Assembly (NCBI RefSeq): GCF_013359735.1
Contig: NZ_JABFMX010000020.1
Location: 1-64,000, forward strand
DNA length: 64,000 nt
Direction: 5' to 3'
From: Arthrobacter sp. C9C5
Lineage (GTDB): Bacteria > Actinomycetota > Actinomycetes > Actinomycetales > Micrococcaceae
The position numbers and the translations under genes are program-made. Below the pieces are notes generated by a model. It ran no database searches. It was not told where the DNA came from and was given only the letters and a program-made list of their open reading frames with translations. Each line of letters opens with the position of its first letter. Position 1 is the stretch's first letter. Shown here piece after piece: positions 18,578-26,652 of the stretch.

Positions 18578-19552
18578 ATGCAGGTGAGGATAAGGACGAC
18601 TATTGCCTGGGGTGGGTCGGTGACGCGCTTAGTTCGGTGGGGACGGGCATATTTCGCCTTCCAGGCTCTTGCCGGTGCGTCCTGGTGGGCCGCGGTTTTC
18701 GCATCGCCGATGGTGCGTGAGGCGACCCTCGGCAATCTCGACTCTGTTGCCGTCGCAGTCTTCGACATTCCACTGTTCGTCGTGGCCTCGGCCATGGCGG
18801 CTTTCGGGGTTCGGGCCGCAGCAGTCGTGAGTGCCGGCTGGACCGGCGTTGTCGCCGTCGTGCTGGCGGCATATGCCTCGATTACAGCCGAAGCGGGCTG
18901 GGGCGTACTGAGCATGGGTGCTGCCACCGCTGGTTCACTGATCGCGCTTTGCGCGGTCTTGCTAGGCCGCATACCGACAGCGTGGATCATCCGCGGCCCG
19001 TTCGCGTTCCGTCCCGCCACCAGGCGCCGGACCGCGGCCGGCCATCTGGCCACAACATTCGGGCAGATCGTCGTCTTTTGGAGCTTCTTCCTGGCGGTGA
19101 TTCCTCTTGCCATCTTGTTCCTCGAACGACGCTTGGCGCTGGCGCTCCCGTTTCCGCCGTTTACCGCTCCAGCCGGTGCTGTGGTTCTCGTGCTGGCCAG
19201 CGCCCTCGGCCTCTGGTCGGCAGTAGTCATGTCAACGCGGGGGCACGGCACGCCGTTGCCGTCAGCGATGCCCAACCGCCTGGTCATCGCGGGTCCGTAC
19301 CGCTGGATTCGCAATCCGATGGCCGTCGCCGGCATTGTCCAAGGCGCCGCGGTCGGCCTGATCATGCAGTCGTGGCTCGTCATCGCCTACGCGATCGCCG
19401 GCTCGCTGGTGTGGAACTATGCCGTCAGGCCGCTGGAGGAATCCGACCTCAGGGAACGGTTCGGGGACGAATATCAGCAATACCGCGACACGGTGCGCTG
19501 CTGGCTCCCTCGGCTACCGAGAGCACAGCGCCGTCAGACGAGTTCACCGTAG
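18578..19552 (+). CDS. membrane methyltransferase, ICMT/PEMT-like
   Basis: Up to 324 residues with about seven hydrophobic segments. The C-terminal third has the isoprenylcysteine carboxyl methyltransferase-like signature: NRLVIAGPYRWIRNPMAVAG for SAM binding and LEESDLRERFGDEYQQYRD near the end. Such enzymes methylate lipid or small-molecule carboxyl/hydroxyl groups at the membrane. The start is uncertain: ATG 18578 lacks a Shine-Dalgarno, while GTG 18620 (giving VTRLVRWG) has GGGTGG upstream and would yield 310 residues. Some ICMT-family members act with type III polyketide synthases, and one lies 3.5 kb downstream; that link is speculative. Confidence 0.75.
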   Translation: MQVRIRTTIAWGGSVTRLVRWGRAYFAFQALAGASWWAAVFASPMVREATLGNLDSVAVAVFDIPLFVVASAMAAFGVRAAAVVSAGWTGVVAVVLAAYASITAEAGWGVLSMGAATAGSLIALCAVLLGRIPTAWIIRGPFAFRPATRRRTAAGHLATTFGQIVVFWSFFLAVIPLAILFLERRLALALPFPPFTAPAGAVVLVLASALGLWSAVVMSTRGHGTPLPSAMPNRLVIAGPYRWIRNPMAVAGIVQGAAVGLIMQSWLVIAYAIAGSLVWNYAVRPLEESDLRERFGDEYQQYRDTVRCWLPRLPRAQRRQTSSP

Positions 19553-20546: not shown

Positions 20547-22952
20547 TCACTTCCCGACGTAAGCCGCCAGATGCTCCCCCGTCAGCGTGGACTTCGCCGC
20601 AACCAGCTCGGCGGGCGTGCCCTCGAAGACGATCCGTCCGCCGTCGTGTCCGGCGCCAGGGCCCAGGTCGATGATCCAGTCCGCGTGCGCCATGACCGCC
20701 TGGTGGTGCTCGATGACGATCACGGACTTGCCGGAATCGACCAGCCGGTCCAGCAGGCCGAGGAGGTTCGCGACGTCGGCCAGATGCAGGCCCGTGGTCG
20801 GTTCGTCAAGGACGTAGACGTCCCCCTTCTCCGCCATCTGGGTGGCCATCTTGAGCCGCTGCCGTTCGCCGCCGGAGAGCGTGGTGAGCGGCTGCCCCAG
20901 GCTGAGGTAGCCGAGTCCGACGTCCACGAGCCGGTCGAGAATCTTGTGCGCCGCCGGCGTGCGGGCCTCCCCGGCGCCAAAGAACAGCTCGGCCTCGGTC
21001 ATCGACATCGCCAGGACTTCAGCGATGTTGCGGCCGGCCAGCTTGTATTCCAGCACCGACGCCAGGAACCTGCGGCCCTCGCAGTCCTCGCAAGTGGACT
21101 CGACTGTGGCCATCACGCCAAGCTCCGTGAAGATGACGCCCGCGCCGTTGCAGGTGGGGCAGGCGCCTTCGGAGTTGGAGCTGAACAGCGCCGGCTTGAC
21201 GCCGTTGGCCTTCGCGAACGCCTTGCGGATCGGCTCAAGCAGGCCCGTGTACGTCGCAGGGTTGCTGCGCCGTGAACCCTTGATGGCGCCCTGGTCGATC
21301 AACACCACACCGTCCCGGCCGGCCACCGAGCCCTGGATCAGCGAGCTCTTGCCGGATCCGGCCACGCCCGTGAGCACACACAGCACGCCGAGCGGGAGGT
21401 CGACGTCGACGTCCCGGAGGTTGTTGGTCGACGCGCCGCGCACCTCAAGCGAGCCCGACGGCGTACGCGCCGTTTCCTTAACCATCGCCCGGTCGTCCAG
21501 GTGGTGGCCGGTGATGGTGTCACTGCCCCGCAGTCCCTCCACACTTCCTTCGAAGCAGACACTGCCGCCCCCGGTGCCCGCGCCGGGACCAAGATCAATG
21601 ACGTGGTCGGCGATCGCGATGGTCTCCGGCTTGTGCTCGACGACGAGCACCGTGTTGCCTTTATCCCGGAGCTGCAGCAACAGCTGGTTCATCCGCTCGA
21701 TGTCATGGGGGTGCAGGCCGATCGTCGGCTCGTCGAAGACGTATGTGATGTCGGTCAGCGATGATCCCAGGTGGCGGATCATCTTGGTCCGCTGCGCCTC
21801 TCCCCCGGACAAAGTCCCCGCCGGCCGGTCCAGCGAGAGGTAGCCCAGCCCGATTTCGGCAAACGAATCGAGCAGGTGCCGCAGGCCTTTAAGGAGCGGC
21901 GCGACCGAGGGCTCGTCGAGCTCACGGACCCAAAGGGCCAGGTCACTGATCTGCATCTCGCACAATTCGGCGATGTTCTTCCCCAGGATCTTCGAGGACC
22001 GCGCCTCCTTGCTGAGCCGGGTGCCGTTGCACTCGGGGCAGGCCTGGAAGGTAATGGCCCGGTCTACGAAGGCCCGGATGTGCGGCTGCATCGCCTCGAC
22101 ATCCTTGGAAAGCATCGATTTCTGGATCTTCGGGATCAGGCCCTCGTAGGTGAGGTTGATGCCCTCGACCTTGATCTTCGTCGGCTCCTTGTAGAGGAGA
22201 TCGTTCATTTCCTTCTTGGTGTACTTCGCGATCGGCTTGTCCATGTCGAAACCGGCACCGCTGAAGATGCGGCCGTACCAGCCGTCCATGCTGTACCCGG
22301 GGATCGTCAGCGCGCCCTCGGCCAGCGACTTGCTCTCGTCATAGAGCGCCGTGAGGTCAAAGTCGGAGACCGAGCCCATCCCCTCGCACCGCGGGCACAT
22401 GCCGCCCAGGTAGACGGCGCCGTGCACCACACTCTTCTCGACCCGGCCCCCGGCTTTTTCGGTGCTCATCACCCCGCTGGCCTTCCTTGTGGGGACGTTG
22501 AAGGAGAACGCCGTGGGCGGCCCCACGTGCGGTGTCCCAAGCCGGCTGAAGAGGATGCGGAGCATGGCGTTGGCGTCGGTGGCGGTGCCGACGGTGGACC
22601 GCGGGTTCGCCCCCATCCGTTCCTGGTCGACGATGATCGCCGTCGTGAGCCCCTCCAGGAGGTCGACGTCGGGCCGCGCCAGGTTGGGCATGAAGCCCTG
22701 CACAAAGGCGCTGTAGGTTTCGTTGATCATCCGCTGCGACTCGGCGGCGATCGTGGCGAACACCAGCGAGCTCTTACCCGAGCCGGAGACGCCGGTGAAC
22801 ACGGTCAACCGGCGCTTCGGGATCTCAACGCTGATGTTCTTGAGGTTGTTCTCCCGGGCGCCCTGGACACGGATCAGGTCGTGGGTGTCGGCGACGTGCG
22901 GCGCCGGCAGCCGCGGGTCGGTCGGCGTGTCCGTGTTCGTCGCCATGCTCAT
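20547..22952 (-). CDS. UvrA-like ABC ATPase (DrrC-type drug-resistance paralogue)
   Basis: 801-residue UvrA paralogue, shorter than true UvrA (about 940). It has two ABC ATPase halves: Walker A GVSGSGKSS and GVAGSGKSS, ABC signatures TLSGGEAQR and TLSGGERQR, and Walker B with YVFDEPTIGLH and YVLDEPTTGLH. The C-terminal zinc finger is intact (CPTC, 19 residues, CEDC), and a second Cys set is present (CPRC and CPEC), but the usual first zinc-module pair is missing. This form resembles DrrC of Streptomyces peucetius, which protects against DNA-intercalating antibiotics. Start ATG 22952 with AGGGAG five bases upstream. It is divergent from the polyketide synthase gene, separated by 162 bases. Confidence 0.88.
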   Translation of the reverse strand: MSMATNTDTPTDPRLPAPHVADTHDLIRVQGARENNLKNISVEIPKRRLTVFTGVSGSGKSSLVFATIAAESQRMINETYSAFVQGFMPNLARPDVDLLEGLTTAIIVDQERMGANPRSTVGTATDANAMLRILFSRLGTPHVGPPTAFSFNVPTRKASGVMSTEKAGGRVEKSVVHGAVYLGGMCPRCEGMGSVSDFDLTALYDESKSLAEGALTIPGYSMDGWYGRIFSGAGFDMDKPIAKYTKKEMNDLLYKEPTKIKVEGINLTYEGLIPKIQKSMLSKDVEAMQPHIRAFVDRAITFQACPECNGTRLSKEARSSKILGKNIAELCEMQISDLALWVRELDEPSVAPLLKGLRHLLDSFAEIGLGYLSLDRPAGTLSGGEAQRTKMIRHLGSSLTDITYVFDEPTIGLHPHDIERMNQLLLQLRDKGNTVLVVEHKPETIAIADHVIDLGPGAGTGGGSVCFEGSVEGLRGSDTITGHHLDDRAMVKETARTPSGSLEVRGASTNNLRDVDVDLPLGVLCVLTGVAGSGKSSLIQGSVAGRDGVVLIDQGAIKGSRRSNPATYTGLLEPIRKAFAKANGVKPALFSSNSEGACPTCNGAGVIFTELGVMATVESTCEDCEGRRFLASVLEYKLAGRNIAEVLAMSMTEAELFFGAGEARTPAAHKILDRLVDVGLGYLSLGQPLTTLSGGERQRLKMATQMAEKGDVYVLDEPTTGLHLADVANLLGLLDRLVDSGKSVIVIEHHQAVMAHADWIIDLGPGAGHDGGRIVFEGTPAELVAAKSTLTGEHLAAYVGK

Positions 22953-23114
22953 TGTGTCTCCCTCTGTTCGGCCTTGCCGCCCCCGCGGTGTCCGACGGCG
23001 TCGCCTCGCTCGATGTGATCAGCTTAGAACAGACGATGGGGTTATCTTCCGCCGGGTCAGCCGTACGCCGTCGGCATGCATTGTCTTATCCGCCGCCCTC
23101 ACTGAGAATGAACC

Positions 23115-24362
23115 ATGACGGTCTACCTGAGGTCCCTGGAAACTGCTGTCCCGCCCACCGTATTGATTCAGTCCGAGGCCCGCGACGTGTTTGCCGCCCA
23201 GCCGGGGCTCAGCCGGCTCGGCTCCCGGCTGGTGAGCACCTGCTTCGACTCCGCCGCCATCGACACCCGCTACACCGCCGTCGGGGAGCTCACCACCGGC
23301 AGCCGGGCGGAGAATCCGCAGTTCTTCGACCCCGCCACCGGCCTGCTGCTGAGCCCCAGCACGAAAGTCAGGAACGACATCTTCGCCGCCGAAGCCAGCA
23401 AGCTCTTCATTGAGGCGGCGGACAAGGCGCTGGCGGCTTGCCCGGGCATCGACGCCCGCGACATCACCCACCTCGTCACAGTCTCCTGCACCGGCTTCTT
23501 CAACCCCGGCCCCGACTACAAGATTGTCCGTGCGCTCGGGCTGAACCCCGCGGTCCAGCGCTACCACCTCGGCTTCATGGGGTGTTACGCCGCCTTCCCG
23601 GCGCTGCGCGCGGCCAAGTCGTTTTGCGACGCGGATCCGGAGGCCGTGGTGCTGGTGGTCTGCGCCGAACTTTGTTCCCTCCACGTCCGGACCTCCAACG
23701 ACCCGGACACGATCATGGGATCGGCGTTGTTCGCCGACGGCGCGGCGGCCGCCATCATCAGCGCCCGCGACATCGCGGACCAGCCGGCCCTGCTGACCCT
23801 GGACCACTTTGAAACGGTTTTGACCCCGGTTGGCGAGGAAGCGATGGCGTGGAACATCGGCGATGAAGGCTTCGAAATGGTCCTCGGCACCTACGTCCCG
23901 CACATCATCGACGACCACATCATCGGCGCCCTCGAACCGCTCTTGTCCCGGGATGCCTCGCTGCTCGGGCTCTCCTACCGGGACATCCGGCACTGGGCCA
24001 TCCATCCCGGCGGCCGCAGCATCCTGGACAAGGTGCAGTCCAGGCTGGAGCTCAGCGACGAACAGCTGGTCCCGGCGCGCGAAACGCTGCGGAACTACGG
24101 CAACATGAGCAGCGCCACCGTGCTCTTCGTGATCCGGCACATCCTCGACCTCCCCGCGGCCGGCGCCGGCACCGAGGGCGACACCGGCGATGTGCTGGAG
24201 GCCGACGGCGACGGCGGGGAACGCATCTGCTCGATGGCATTCGGCCCGGGCCTCACCGTGGAGACCGCCCTCTTCACCAAGATCACCGCACCACGGGGAG
24301 CCAGGGGCGAGGCCGATCCCGAGCGCCCCGGCGTGCCCTGGCCGGCATCGGCCCTGGCCTGA
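23115..24362 (+). CDS. type III polyketide synthase
   Basis: Chalcone synthase-like type III PKS, 415 residues, which extends a CoA starter with malonyl-CoA and cyclises it. The catalytic triad is complete: Cys125 (VSCTGFFNPG), His297 (WAIHPGGRS) and Asn330 (NYGNMSS). It is longer than RppA-type enzymes because of an insertion near the C-terminus (AGAGTEGDTGDVLEADGDGG) and a 25-residue tail. First gene of a three-gene operon with a methyltransferase and an FAD hydroxylase, the same enzyme set as srsA-srsB-srsC for phenolic lipids in Streptomyces griseus. ATG 23115 has only a weak Shine-Dalgarno (GAGAA). Product class (alkylresorcinol, alkylpyrone or other) is inferred. Confidence 0.92.
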   Translation: MTVYLRSLETAVPPTVLIQSEARDVFAAQPGLSRLGSRLVSTCFDSAAIDTRYTAVGELTTGSRAENPQFFDPATGLLLSPSTKVRNDIFAAEASKLFIEAADKALAACPGIDARDITHLVTVSCTGFFNPGPDYKIVRALGLNPAVQRYHLGFMGCYAAFPALRAAKSFCDADPEAVVLVVCAELCSLHVRTSNDPDTIMGSALFADGAAAAIISARDIADQPALLTLDHFETVLTPVGEEAMAWNIGDEGFEMVLGTYVPHIIDDHIIGALEPLLSRDASLLGLSYRDIRHWAIHPGGRSILDKVQSRLELSDEQLVPARETLRNYGNMSSATVLFVIRHILDLPAAGAGTEGDTGDVLEADGDGGERICSMAFGPGLTVETALFTKITAPRGARGEADPERPGVPWPASALA

Positions 24363-24373
24363 GCACGGGCGCC

Positions 24374-25090
24374 ATGGTGCTGCTGCGCACGCGTGCCCTG
24401 GACGCCGTTGAGGAGATGGACCGGCCCGACTGCGATCCGGCCAGGCTGGAACGAACCTACGCCCAGTTCGCCCTGGTGAACCGCGCCGTGTCCGGCTGGA
24501 GGGGCATCTACCGGCAGCAGCTCAAGCCGCTGCTCTCCGCGGGGTCGGCCACCACGTTGTTGGACATCGGTTGCGGCGGAGGCGACGTCCCGGTGCTGTT
24601 GTCCCGCTGGGCGGCCCGGGACGGACTGCGACTGGAGATCACGGCGATCGACCCGGACCCACGGGCCGCCGCATTTGCCGCCAGCCGGCGCACCCGTGGC
24701 GGCGTGCGGTTCCGGCGGCAGACGGCGGCGGAGCTGCTCGGCGAAGGCGCGCGCTACGACGTCGTTGTCTCCAACCATGTGCTGCACCATCTGGACGCCG
24801 GCGAACTTGCCGGTTTCCTGGCCGAATCGGCCGCGTTGAGCGCCGGCACCGTGATCCACAACGACCTCCGCCGCAGCCCGGCCGCGTATGGGCTGTTCTA
24901 TGCGGGCGCCACGCCGTTCCTGGGCTCCTACATCCGGCAGGACGGCCTGACGTCGATCCGGCGCAGCTATACCGCGGCGGAACTGCGCGCGGCGGCTCCC
25001 CCGGGCTGGACCGTGCTGGCCCGCGCCCCGTTCCGCAACTTGCTGGTCCTGGACAGGACACAGCAGCGGCCTGCCGGGGCCGGACCATGA
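24374..25090 (+). CDS. class I SAM-dependent methyltransferase
   Basis: 238 residues with a Rossmann methyltransferase core: SAM motif LLDIGCGGGDVPVLL, acidic motif ITAIDPDPRA and VVVSNHVLHHL. Starts 12 bases after the polyketide synthase stop and ends in a four-base overlap (ATGA) with the next gene, so it is translated as part of the operon. It most likely O- or C-methylates the polyketide or its hydroxylated quinone. GTG 24377 is an equally possible start. It belongs to the UbiE/Coq-like class, unlike the ICMT-type methyltransferases seen in some phenolic-lipid operons. Confidence 0.88.
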   Translation: MVLLRTRALDAVEEMDRPDCDPARLERTYAQFALVNRAVSGWRGIYRQQLKPLLSAGSATTLLDIGCGGGDVPVLLSRWAARDGLRLEITAIDPDPRAAAFAASRRTRGGVRFRRQTAAELLGEGARYDVVVSNHVLHHLDAGELAGFLAESAALSAGTVIHNDLRRSPAAYGLFYAGATPFLGSYIRQDGLTSIRRSYTAAELRAAAPPGWTVLARAPFRNLLVLDRTQQRPAGAGP

Positions 25091-26232
25091 CCGACGCCGT
25101 GACCGATGCCGTGATCATCGGCGGCGGCCCGGTGGGGCTGTTCATGGCTAGCCTGCTGCTGCAGCGGGGGCTGCAGGTCACGGTGCTCGAACAGCGGACC
25201 GGGCCGGAACCGCACTCGCGGGCCATTGGTATCCATCCGCCGGCCCTGGAGGCCCTGCGGCAAGTCGGCGTGGATCAGGAGCTCGTCCGCCGGGGCGTCC
25301 CGATCCGGCGCGGCATTGCCCTCAACTGCGGCACCAGGCTGGCCGAGATGTCCTTCGCCCGGGTGTCCGAGCGGTTCCCATTCGTGCTCTCCCTGCCGCA
25401 GGGCCGCACTGAGGCTGTGCTGGAGAAGCGGCTGCAGGAGCTCGACCCGGACGCGCTGCGCCGCGGCGTGCGGGTGGACGGGCTGCACGACGACGGCCGG
25501 CAGGTCACGGTGCAGGCCTGCCGGGGCGGACGGGCGGTCAGCTTCGCGGCTCCCCTTGTGATCGCCGCGGATGGGGTCCGCTCCGCGGCCCGGGCCGCGC
25601 TCGGCGTGCCCCTGCGGCGCAGGGACTACCCGGACCGCTACCTCATGGGCGACTTCGTCGACGGCACCGGACTTGGTCCCGATGCGGCACTGTTCCTGGC
25701 CAGCGGCGGGATCGTCGAGTCGTTCCCGCTGCCGGGGAAGCTCCGCCGCTGGGTGGTTCGCCTGGGTCCGGCCGCGGCCGGGAGCGCGGCCGACGCCGCG
25801 TGGCTGGCACGGGAGGTCCGGCGACGGACGGGCGTCGACGTCGACCCCGGCAGCAACAGCATGCTCAGCGGCTTCGGCGTGCGTTCCCGGCTGGCCCGCC
25901 GGATGGTGGCGGGCCGCTGCATTCTGATCGGGGACGCGGCACACGAGATCAGCCCGATCGGAGGTCAGGGCATGAGCCTGGGCTGGCTCGACGCGCTGGC
26001 GCTGGCGCCCCTCGTGCCGGCGCTCGTGGCCGGCACCCGCACCGGCCTGCCGGCGTTCGAACGGCACCGGATGCGCCAGGCCGCGAGGGCGGCGCGGCAG
26101 TCGGAGATCAACATGGCGCTGGGCCGGCCGCTCCGCGAAGGACCGCTGGCCGCACGCAACAGTGTCTTAGCCGCCGCGGCGGCCGTCCCGGCCGTCAACA
26201 GCTTCGTGGCCCGCCGGTTCACCATGCAGTAG
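25087..26232 (+). CDS. FAD-dependent aromatic hydroxylase
   Basis: 381-residue class A flavoprotein monooxygenase. Visible motifs: N-terminal VIIGGGPVGLFMA (GxGxxG for FAD), the DG motif VIAADGVRSAAR and the GD motif CILIGDAAHEISPIGGQGMSLG. ATG 25087 overlaps the methyltransferase stop. In SrsC-like pathways such an enzyme hydroxylates the alkylresorcinol ring toward a quinone; that role is proposed here from gene order only. The downstream SnoaL-like gene is convergent, so the operon ends with this gene. Confidence 0.9.
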   Translation: MTDAVTDAVIIGGGPVGLFMASLLLQRGLQVTVLEQRTGPEPHSRAIGIHPPALEALRQVGVDQELVRRGVPIRRGIALNCGTRLAEMSFARVSERFPFVLSLPQGRTEAVLEKRLQELDPDALRRGVRVDGLHDDGRQVTVQACRGGRAVSFAAPLVIAADGVRSAARAALGVPLRRRDYPDRYLMGDFVDGTGLGPDAALFLASGGIVESFPLPGKLRRWVVRLGPAAAGSAADAAWLAREVRRRTGVDVDPGSNSMLSGFGVRSRLARRMVAGRCILIGDAAHEISPIGGQGMSLGWLDALALAPLVPALVAGTRTGLPAFERHRMRQAARAARQSEINMALGRPLREGPLAARNSVLAAAAAVPAVNSFVARRFTMQ

Positions 26233-26247: not shown

Positions 26248-26652
26248 TCAGCGCGGCGTGTAGTAGCAGTCGTAGCTGTGCTGGCTGATGATCCGGCCGT
26301 CGCGCACCTCGAACACCGAGGCGGTCCGGGCCCGGATTTCGTCGCCCTTGTCCCAATGGGGCAGATTCATCAGCACCGTCGCGGACCACTCGGCCTCGAG
26401 GACCACCCGGCCGCCCTCGCAGGTGCTGCGCCGGACTTCGAAGCGCTGCCCGGAAACGATTTCGCCGCTGTGCTCGGCACCGTCGAGGACCTGGTCCCGG
26501 TTGCGGGTGGATCCCCCGGGAGCGAGCAGGTGCGGTGCCTCGGTCAGGACGTAGTCTTCGGCCAGGAAGGGCCCGAGCGCCGCCGCGCCGCCTCCGGCTT
26601 CAATGGCCCGGAGCAGGCCGAGCACGCAGTCCAGGGGTGTCGGTGAAGTCAT
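26248..26652 (-). CDS. SnoaL-like / NTF2-fold protein
   Basis: 134 residues with the cone-shaped NTF2 fold pattern: DCVLGLLRAIEAGGGAAALG, FLAEDYVLTEAPHL, VLEAEWSATV, ARTASVFEVRDGRIISQHSYDCY. SnoaL relatives include polyketide cyclases and isomerases but most have no assigned reaction. ATG 26652 is six bases after TAGTCT on the minus strand, hence leaderless. It converges on the FAD hydroxylase with a 15-base gap; whether it belongs to that pathway is uncertain. Confidence 0.8.
   Translation of the reverse strand: MTSPTPLDCVLGLLRAIEAGGGAAALGPFLAEDYVLTEAPHLLAPGGSTRNRDQVLDGAEHSGEIVSGQRFEVRRSTCEGGRVVLEAEWSATVLMNLPHWDKGDEIRARTASVFEVRDGRIISQHSYDCYYTPR

Follow-up and report, generated by a model that had tools for sequence, protein, structure and literature searches.

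A putative phenolic-lipid operon of Arthrobacter with a PRK06202-type methyltransferase, and its relatives in Deinococcus

Introduction

Operons that join a type III polyketide synthase (PKS) gene to genes for a methyltransferase (MT) and a flavin adenine dinucleotide (FAD)-dependent oxidoreductase have been described in bacteria, and this report concerns one of them, ordered PKS-MT-FAD, at positions 23,115 to 26,232 of a 64,000-nucleotide stretch from Arthrobacter sp. C9C5 (contig NZ_JABFMX010000020.1, positions 1 to 64,000), which as a whole is called the window below. The srsABC operon of Streptomyces griseus and the pkqABC operons of mycobacteria and Streptomyces share the gene order and the enzyme classes of the window operon, but srsB encodes an ICMT family enzyme (PMC6669644), whereas the MT of the window belongs to class I. 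In mycobacteria the quinones made by these systems are reported to act as alternative carriers of electrons, a role also proposed for a Streptomyces (PMC9927152).

The combination of PKS, MT and FAD oxidoreductase seen in the window also occurs in hidABC, the hierridin operon of Cyanobium, and in planctomycete operons (PMC10896814, PMC8086630). In planctomycetes, 58 of 96 PKS genes stand in operons with methyltransferase and oxidoreductase genes, and PKSs from operons of the MT-FAD-PKS type (that of Paludisphaera not among them) yielded pentadecyl- and heptadecylresorcinols when expressed in C. glutamicum; addition of the MT and FAD genes of Gimesia maris led to a single, probably C-, methylation, the G. 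maris enzyme being probably a C-methyltransferase, while HidA methylates both hydroxyls (PMC10896814). The more conserved order of hid genes is MT-FAD-PKS, unlike that of the window, and the order hidC-hidA-hidB, which is that of the window, has been reported for some cyanobacteria; in the tree published with hidABC, hierridin-type PKSs and SrsA/PKS10/PKS11 fall into separate clades (PMC8086630).

Actinobacterial type III PKSs making alkylresorcinols, the product type proposed here for the window, include those of agq in Actinoplanes missouriensis, known to us by citation only, and los in Micromonospora endolithica, the cloned fragment of which carries a UbiA prenyltransferase gene (PMC7587189) that the window operon lacks. 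A PKS/MT/FAD cluster of unknown product has been noted in Acetobacteraceae (PMC8776678). In Micrococcaceae, type III PKS clusters have been reported to rank with the predominant types of gene cluster (PMC11078813), and the one in a Pseudarthrobacter strain matched no known cluster (PMC12025171); a further study places the alkylresorcinol cluster in Leifsonia and not in the Arthrobacter included there (PMC10628120). No product was assigned to the PKS clade of the window in the Deinococcus and Arthrobacter literature found, which is no proof of absence, as that literature leaves most subscription journals uncovered.

The kind of operon is therefore already known, and what is new is its placement, the link to Deinococcus and the existence of natural variants, so that the gene set of a Micrococcaceae type III PKS operon is now defined, its chemistry can be proposed as likely, and its relatives are known to include Deinococcus. 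With a probability that we put at roughly 0.6, its sequence points to a three-gene phenolic-lipid operon, in which an alkylresorcinol would be formed and then methylated and hydroxylated.

The three genes and the polyketide synthase

All three genes lie on the + strand, with the PKS gene at 23115-24362 (415 aa, P0001), the MT gene at 24374-25090 (238 aa, P0002) and the FAD gene at 25087-26232 (381 aa, P0003). The open reading frames (ORFs) bear out the tight packing described in the initial annotation, including the ATGA overlap of the MT and FAD genes (25087-25090), while the gap between the PKS and MT genes, given there as 12 bases, is 11 bases long (24363-24373). Relatives were collected from genome contigs, and the best 80 of at least 570 were analyzed, an 81st locus (L001) being the window itself. 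The closest PKS relatives among these 80 are from Arthrobacter; the host genome of 3.86 Mb in 47 contigs has a single PF00195 match, which is the window PKS. Compared with 4 of the 80 relatives, all from Arthrobacter, the ratios of nonsynonymous to synonymous substitution (dN/dS) were 0.08-0.12 for the PKS, 0.22-0.26 for the MT and 0.25-0.36 for the FAD protein, and the trio is therefore under purifying selection and does not consist of chance ORFs. The MT gene adjoins the PKS gene in all of the 80 relatives and the FAD gene is present in 79, the exception being L018, where the locus ends inside the MT gene.

The PKS, a likely 5-alkylresorcinol synthase, matched the N- and C-terminal domains of the chalcone synthase (CHS)/stilbene synthase family (PF00195 at 113 bits and PF02797 at 91 bits). 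As initially annotated, its Cys-His-Asn triad is intact: an alignment of 137 PKS rows, together with the sequence itself, identifies Cys157 (codon 23583-23585), His297 (24003-24005) and Asn330 (24102-24104). Across the clade of the window PKS all 96 rows have the Cys, and 95 also have the His and Asn, which are missing from a shortened Microbacterium frame (L184). The longer C-terminus that had been taken as a clue to the product does exist, extending 35 residues beyond FGPGL, but the tail varies between 12 and 57 residues (median 33) in the 80 relatives, which rules out a functional extension; because it is not conserved, it carries no information. Searches of the PDB by sequence returned general family matches only.

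More informative is Trp246 (codon 23850-23852), which, in HMMER alignments read by eye, stands opposite G in soybean CHS (7bur) and opposite F in 1i8b, titled "Chalcone synthase (G256F)". This column, located through Gly256 of chalcone synthase in an alignment without ArsB itself, is taken as the site of ArsB Trp281 and ArsC Gly284, a switch residue for resorcinol or pyrone formation: the W281G mutation of ArsB abolished alkylresorcinol and gave alkylpyrone, and G284W shifted ArsC in the opposite direction (PMC6274091). Trp has been reported at the switch position of FtpA, SrsA, PKS10, PKS11 and MMAR_2474, and the pair MMAR_2474, which has Trp and yields resorcinol among its products, and MMAR_2470, which has Tyr and yields triketide pyrone only (PMC5916927), is resembled by pairs found in two genomes of family f6 (G066 and G082, inferred to be mycobacterial). 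In each of these genomes two type III PKS genes lie about 17 kb from each other, and the encoded enzymes differ at the switch position, W in one and Y in the other (L147/L159 and L154/L171); the pairs serve as an internal control for the column. All 96 rows of the window clade have Trp there, as do all 7 outgroup rows associated with class I MTs. As a marker, Trp246 thus speaks against a pyrone or naphthalene product, but on its own it is no proof of a resorcinol.

Phylogeny of the polyketide synthase

The PKS tree, midpoint-rooted, comprised 69 rows, namely the window, 14 of its 80 best relatives and 54 from a further 56, of which L167 and L173 were omitted for lack of the C-terminal part. 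The window PKS belongs to a clade of 30 rows (support 100/99), which holds 16 rows of the Arthrobacter group, 4 of family f4 from the same order together with one of Microbacterium, 7 of Deinococcus and 2 of family f31. The Psychrobacter PKS joins this clade at 95/87, and those of Proteobacteria, Paenibacillus and Paludisphaera lie near it along with L165, beside whose PKS the gene tested gave no Pfam match; some of the forks here are weak and several branches are long. A part of 24 rows is split off at 100/97 and contains the ICMT-type PKSs, together with a clade of four rows with Tyr at the switch column (L160, L169, L172 and L174). We take this small clade to be THNS/Gcs-like; tetrahydroxynaphthalene synthase (THNS) has Tyr at the CHS 256 column. 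In the split-off part the PKS neighbors were ICMT proteins (PF04140) in 5 of 5 cases tested, and in comparison with the window PKS no ICMT-type PKS scored above 120 bits.

Orthology with srsABC is rejected on the separate PKS clade, in a tree where SrsA and PkqA do not appear by name, and on an MT of another superfamily. The initial view that the operon repeats srsABC thus holds for enzyme classes and gene order and is not supported for descent. The window PKS and MT are closer to those of hidABC-like operons in a planctomycete and in Proteobacteria, which combine a PKS, a class I MT and an FAD enzyme.

A tblastn search of plasmids with the window PKS gave 150 records, 7 of them from Deinococcus, where the proteins are 51-57% (PKS) and 49-57% (MT) identical to those of the window and the order PKS-MT-FAD is kept in 7 of 7. 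Within the window clade the Deinococcus rows group together (100/99), and although they join the Micrococcales rows at a fork of limited support (95/75), this nested position suggests that the operon may have been transferred between phyla. Pairwise identities of the PKS, MT and FAD proteins correlate with one another (rank correlation 0.73-0.79 for 276 pairs of 24 rows), which fits a trio inherited or moved as a unit, while host descent alone would give part of the correlation. In 3 of the 7 Deinococcus records (D. radiodurans, D7000 and AJ005; L181, L183 and L195) a glycosyltransferase gene follows the FAD gene, and these loci could lead to a glycosylated lipid. The Microbacterium plasmid (L184) also has the trio; there the PKS carries no annotation and the MT is broken into two reading pieces, a state that reflects either decay or a sequencing error.

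Outside these groups the PKSs are only distantly related, at 32-37% identity (35.5% for Paludisphaera), with Falsirhodobacter at 41% over three quarters of the query. Those of Roseomonas, Falsirhodobacter, Methylobacterium, Sphingobium, Psychrobacter and Paludisphaera adjoin annotated genes for a methyltransferase and an FAD-dependent enzyme, in varied orders and on varied strands, and in the Paenibacillus record, which is unannotated at the PKS locus, such neighbors were detected by search.

Methyltransferase and FAD hydroxylase

The MT is a class I S-adenosylmethionine-dependent enzyme, as had been annotated, and not of the ICMT type: its Pfam matches are class I models, the best being PF13649 at 46 bits, it scored 318.7 bits against the NCBIfam family NF004851/PRK06202, named "hypothetical protein" (cut-off, 243), and neither the Pfam nor the NCBIfam search gave an ICMT match. 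It is the sole one of the three proteins with a match shown over the cut-off. Its structure model is confident (pLDDT 93.5), and the 50 fold matches listed are all class I methyltransferases of many kinds, with TM scores of 0.46-0.61 by query length. The three Deinococcus MTs tested scored 318-335 bits against NF004851, which is also the best NCBIfam match of all 7 outgroup methyltransferases, all below 243: the enzyme of Paludisphaera, from an operon of MT-FAD-PKS order, is PRK06202-related like the window MT and falls just under the cut-off at 232 bits, and the other six scored 108-160 bits.

The FAD protein matched PF01494 at 166 bits and is predicted to be an aromatic hydroxylase of the p-hydroxybenzoate hydroxylase (PHBH)-like family. 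It contains GGGPVG, ADGVRS and GDAAHEISP, which we take to be the PHBH motifs; among the best 25 of its 72 NCBIfam matches none was over the cut-off. It differs in subfamily from the Paludisphaera FAD protein, which scored 33.8 bits against a profile built from the window clade, HidA, HidB and HidC not being themselves part of these comparisons.

Predicted product and alternatives

The alkylresorcinol is the best reading because Trp246 aligns with the residue that favors resorcinol over pyrone in ArsB, and the tree supports it by placing the window clade with PKSs flanked by a PRK06202-related MT and an FAD enzyme, including that of the planctomycete Paludisphaera. On these grounds an alkylresorcinol- or alkylquinone-type product, one of those first proposed, is also the likeliest prediction now. 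The PKS would load a long-chain fatty acyl thioester on Cys157 and extend it with three malonyl-CoA units, and the wall formed by Trp246 would direct the tetraketide to C2-C7 aldol closure, giving a 5-alkylresorcinol or an alkylresorcylic acid. The PRK06202-type MT would then methylate a ring carbon or a ring oxygen, and the PF01494 flavin hydroxylase would add a ring hydroxyl to give an alkyl-methyl or alkyl-methoxy hydroquinone, oxidizable to the quinone. The product is expected to be an amphiphilic, redox-active membrane lipid.

Several observations weigh against this reading. No characterized PKS was found in the window clade, and those of the outgroup that were opened share 32-41% identity with the window PKS. 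The top NCBIfam match of the PKS is DpgA (NF042429) at 144 bits, far from its cut-off of 425, no NCBIfam match reached the cut-off, and the PKS structure model is moderate (pLDDT 75.7). Trp is not specific to the clade, as the other 34 rows at the switch column have 23 Trp, 6 Tyr, 2 Val or Leu and 2 gaps, with a DpgA row that is unreliably aligned. The fold matches of the MT include C-methyltransferases (CouO, NovO) as well as O-methyltransferases, so the model would allow no choice between C- and O-methylation. The clade FAD profile scored 315-504 bits on 12 clade loci, values inflated because such members built the profile, and 33-38 bits on 3 of the 7 class I outgroups, with no match at E 0.001 in the other 4, whereas the FAD proteins of 8 ICMT-type loci, picked for an earlier match, reached 52-71 bits. 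PF01494 itself was matched at 29-58 bits by the single ICMT-type FAD protein tested and by 6 of the 7 outgroup FAD proteins, which does not decide between the two types. The role of the FAD enzyme was also left open in the planctomycete work (PMC10896814).

In addition, the end product is not fixed, because the tailoring genes vary in nature. In genus g87, of which 6 of the 10 PKS-bearing genomes were opened (L197-L202), the FAD gene directly follows the PKS gene with no MT gene between them; in two genomes of family f31 (L145 and L149) a nitroreductase-family gene (PF00881) takes the place of the FAD gene after the MT gene, and the locus has no FAD-profile match; and in G161 (L206), which has the PKS and MT, the FAD profile found no match over the stretch opened. 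The gene after the PKS gene in G307 encodes a protein with an amine-oxidase domain. Hydroxylation is probably independent of prior methylation in some lineages, and with these natural versions, which lack the MT or use a different oxidoreductase, lipid analysis alone could test in which order the tailoring steps occur.

Mixed products are common among type III PKSs, and a myxobacterial alkylpyrone cluster reportedly also combines PKS, MT and FAD genes, so it is conceivable, though unlikely, that the PKS of the window mainly makes alkyl-alpha-pyrones, which would be O-methylated by the MT and oxidized by the flavin enzyme. The switch column stands against such a product, with Trp throughout the clade where ArsC has Gly (PMC6274091) and MMAR_2470 has Tyr (PMC5916927). 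We regard it as quite improbable that the locus is a true srsABC/pkqABC operon with a swapped methyltransferase: the shared order PKS-MT-FAD and the higher scores of the clade FAD profile on the ICMT-type loci than on the class I outgroups (at most 38 bits) would agree with a swap, but the tree separates the window PKS from those of the ICMT type, and the scores of the latter, no more than 120 bits, compare with 354-696 bits for the 7 members of its clade in the class sample described below. Least probable of all is a short-chain aromatic pathway, leading to a tetrahydroxynaphthalene/flaviolin pigment or a DpgA-like dihydroxyphenyl product, because DpgA, although the best NCBIfam match, is ruled out as an identity by its score, no dpgB-dpgC-like pair was recognized beside the PKS when the ORF list was compared by eye with a dpgA locus, and Trp246, instead of the Tyr of the separate four-row clade, disfavors a THNS/RppA identity.

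Arthrobacter-type bacteria and Deinococcus are known for tolerance of desiccation, oxidation and radiation, and it would be a long shot to propose that both have a redox-active alkyl (methyl or methoxy) hydroquinone or quinone, as yet undescribed, made by a distinct PKS-PRK06202-PF01494 operon, which aids such tolerance as a membrane protectant or an alternative electron carrier.

Distribution in Actinomycetota

The operon is ordinary and widespread. PKS matches (E up to 1e-60) were found in 132 of 197 sampled Micrococcaceae genomes and 21 of 32 genera, and MT matches (E up to 1e-30) in 122 of the same genomes. The MT gene stands beside the PKS gene by coordinates in 118 of these 122, which with G180 makes 119 genomes; in the remaining three the two genes are on separate contigs (G322 and G228) or about 70 kb apart (G307). 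No Micrococcaceae genome of the 197 has an MT match without a PKS match, and the 10 with a PKS and no MT match all belong to g87, being all of the PKS-bearing genomes sampled from that genus. Two Micrococcaceae loci of genus g92 have the complete trio with PKS scores of 294 and 307 bits.

At the level of the class, 148 genomes contained 7 NF004851 matches over the cut-off and one just under it (G106, 241.4 bits), all 8 beside a PKS of the window clade, whereas no further match exceeded 66.7 bits; among 296 genomes of the phylum, NF004851 was matched at E up to 1e-40 in 5, all of them among those 8 class genomes. From the class sample, 40 loci with a PF00195 match were opened, the best-scoring ones except for five higher-ranked in G142, G144, G008, G105 and G113, and the window PKS scored at most 194 bits on the 33 outside the clade. 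A contig filed as an Acidobacteria metagenome-assembled genome (L081) carries the operon with 69% PKS identity and falls inside Micrococcaceae in the tree; it is probably mis-binned.

Gene context

The transcription unit probably consists of just the PKS, MT and FAD genes, because a divergent ORF lies upstream (20547-22952, - strand) and a convergent one downstream (26248-26652, - strand). The former is presumably UvrA-like, a label given by eye without a family search, and the intergenic stretch between it and the PKS gene (22953-23114), delimited from the ORF list, is the presumed promoter region. A promoter scan of the locus found no sigma-70-type consensus site, and a terminator scan found one terminator-like site, within the PKS gene, against 1.5 expected. 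The small downstream ORF, which we take by eye to be SnoaL-like, gave no NCBIfam match and has a homologue in 43 of the 80 related loci.

Farther upstream, an ORF for an ICMT-like membrane methyltransferase (18578-19552, + strand) ends 3.6 kb before the PKS gene and scored 46.9 bits against NF040696 (cut-off, 160). It was considered as a second methyltransferase of the pathway and set aside, as none of the 80 related loci gave a match to it, though 9 of them extend less than 3.6 kb upstream of the PKS gene; in principle, its product might modify phenolic lipids in trans.

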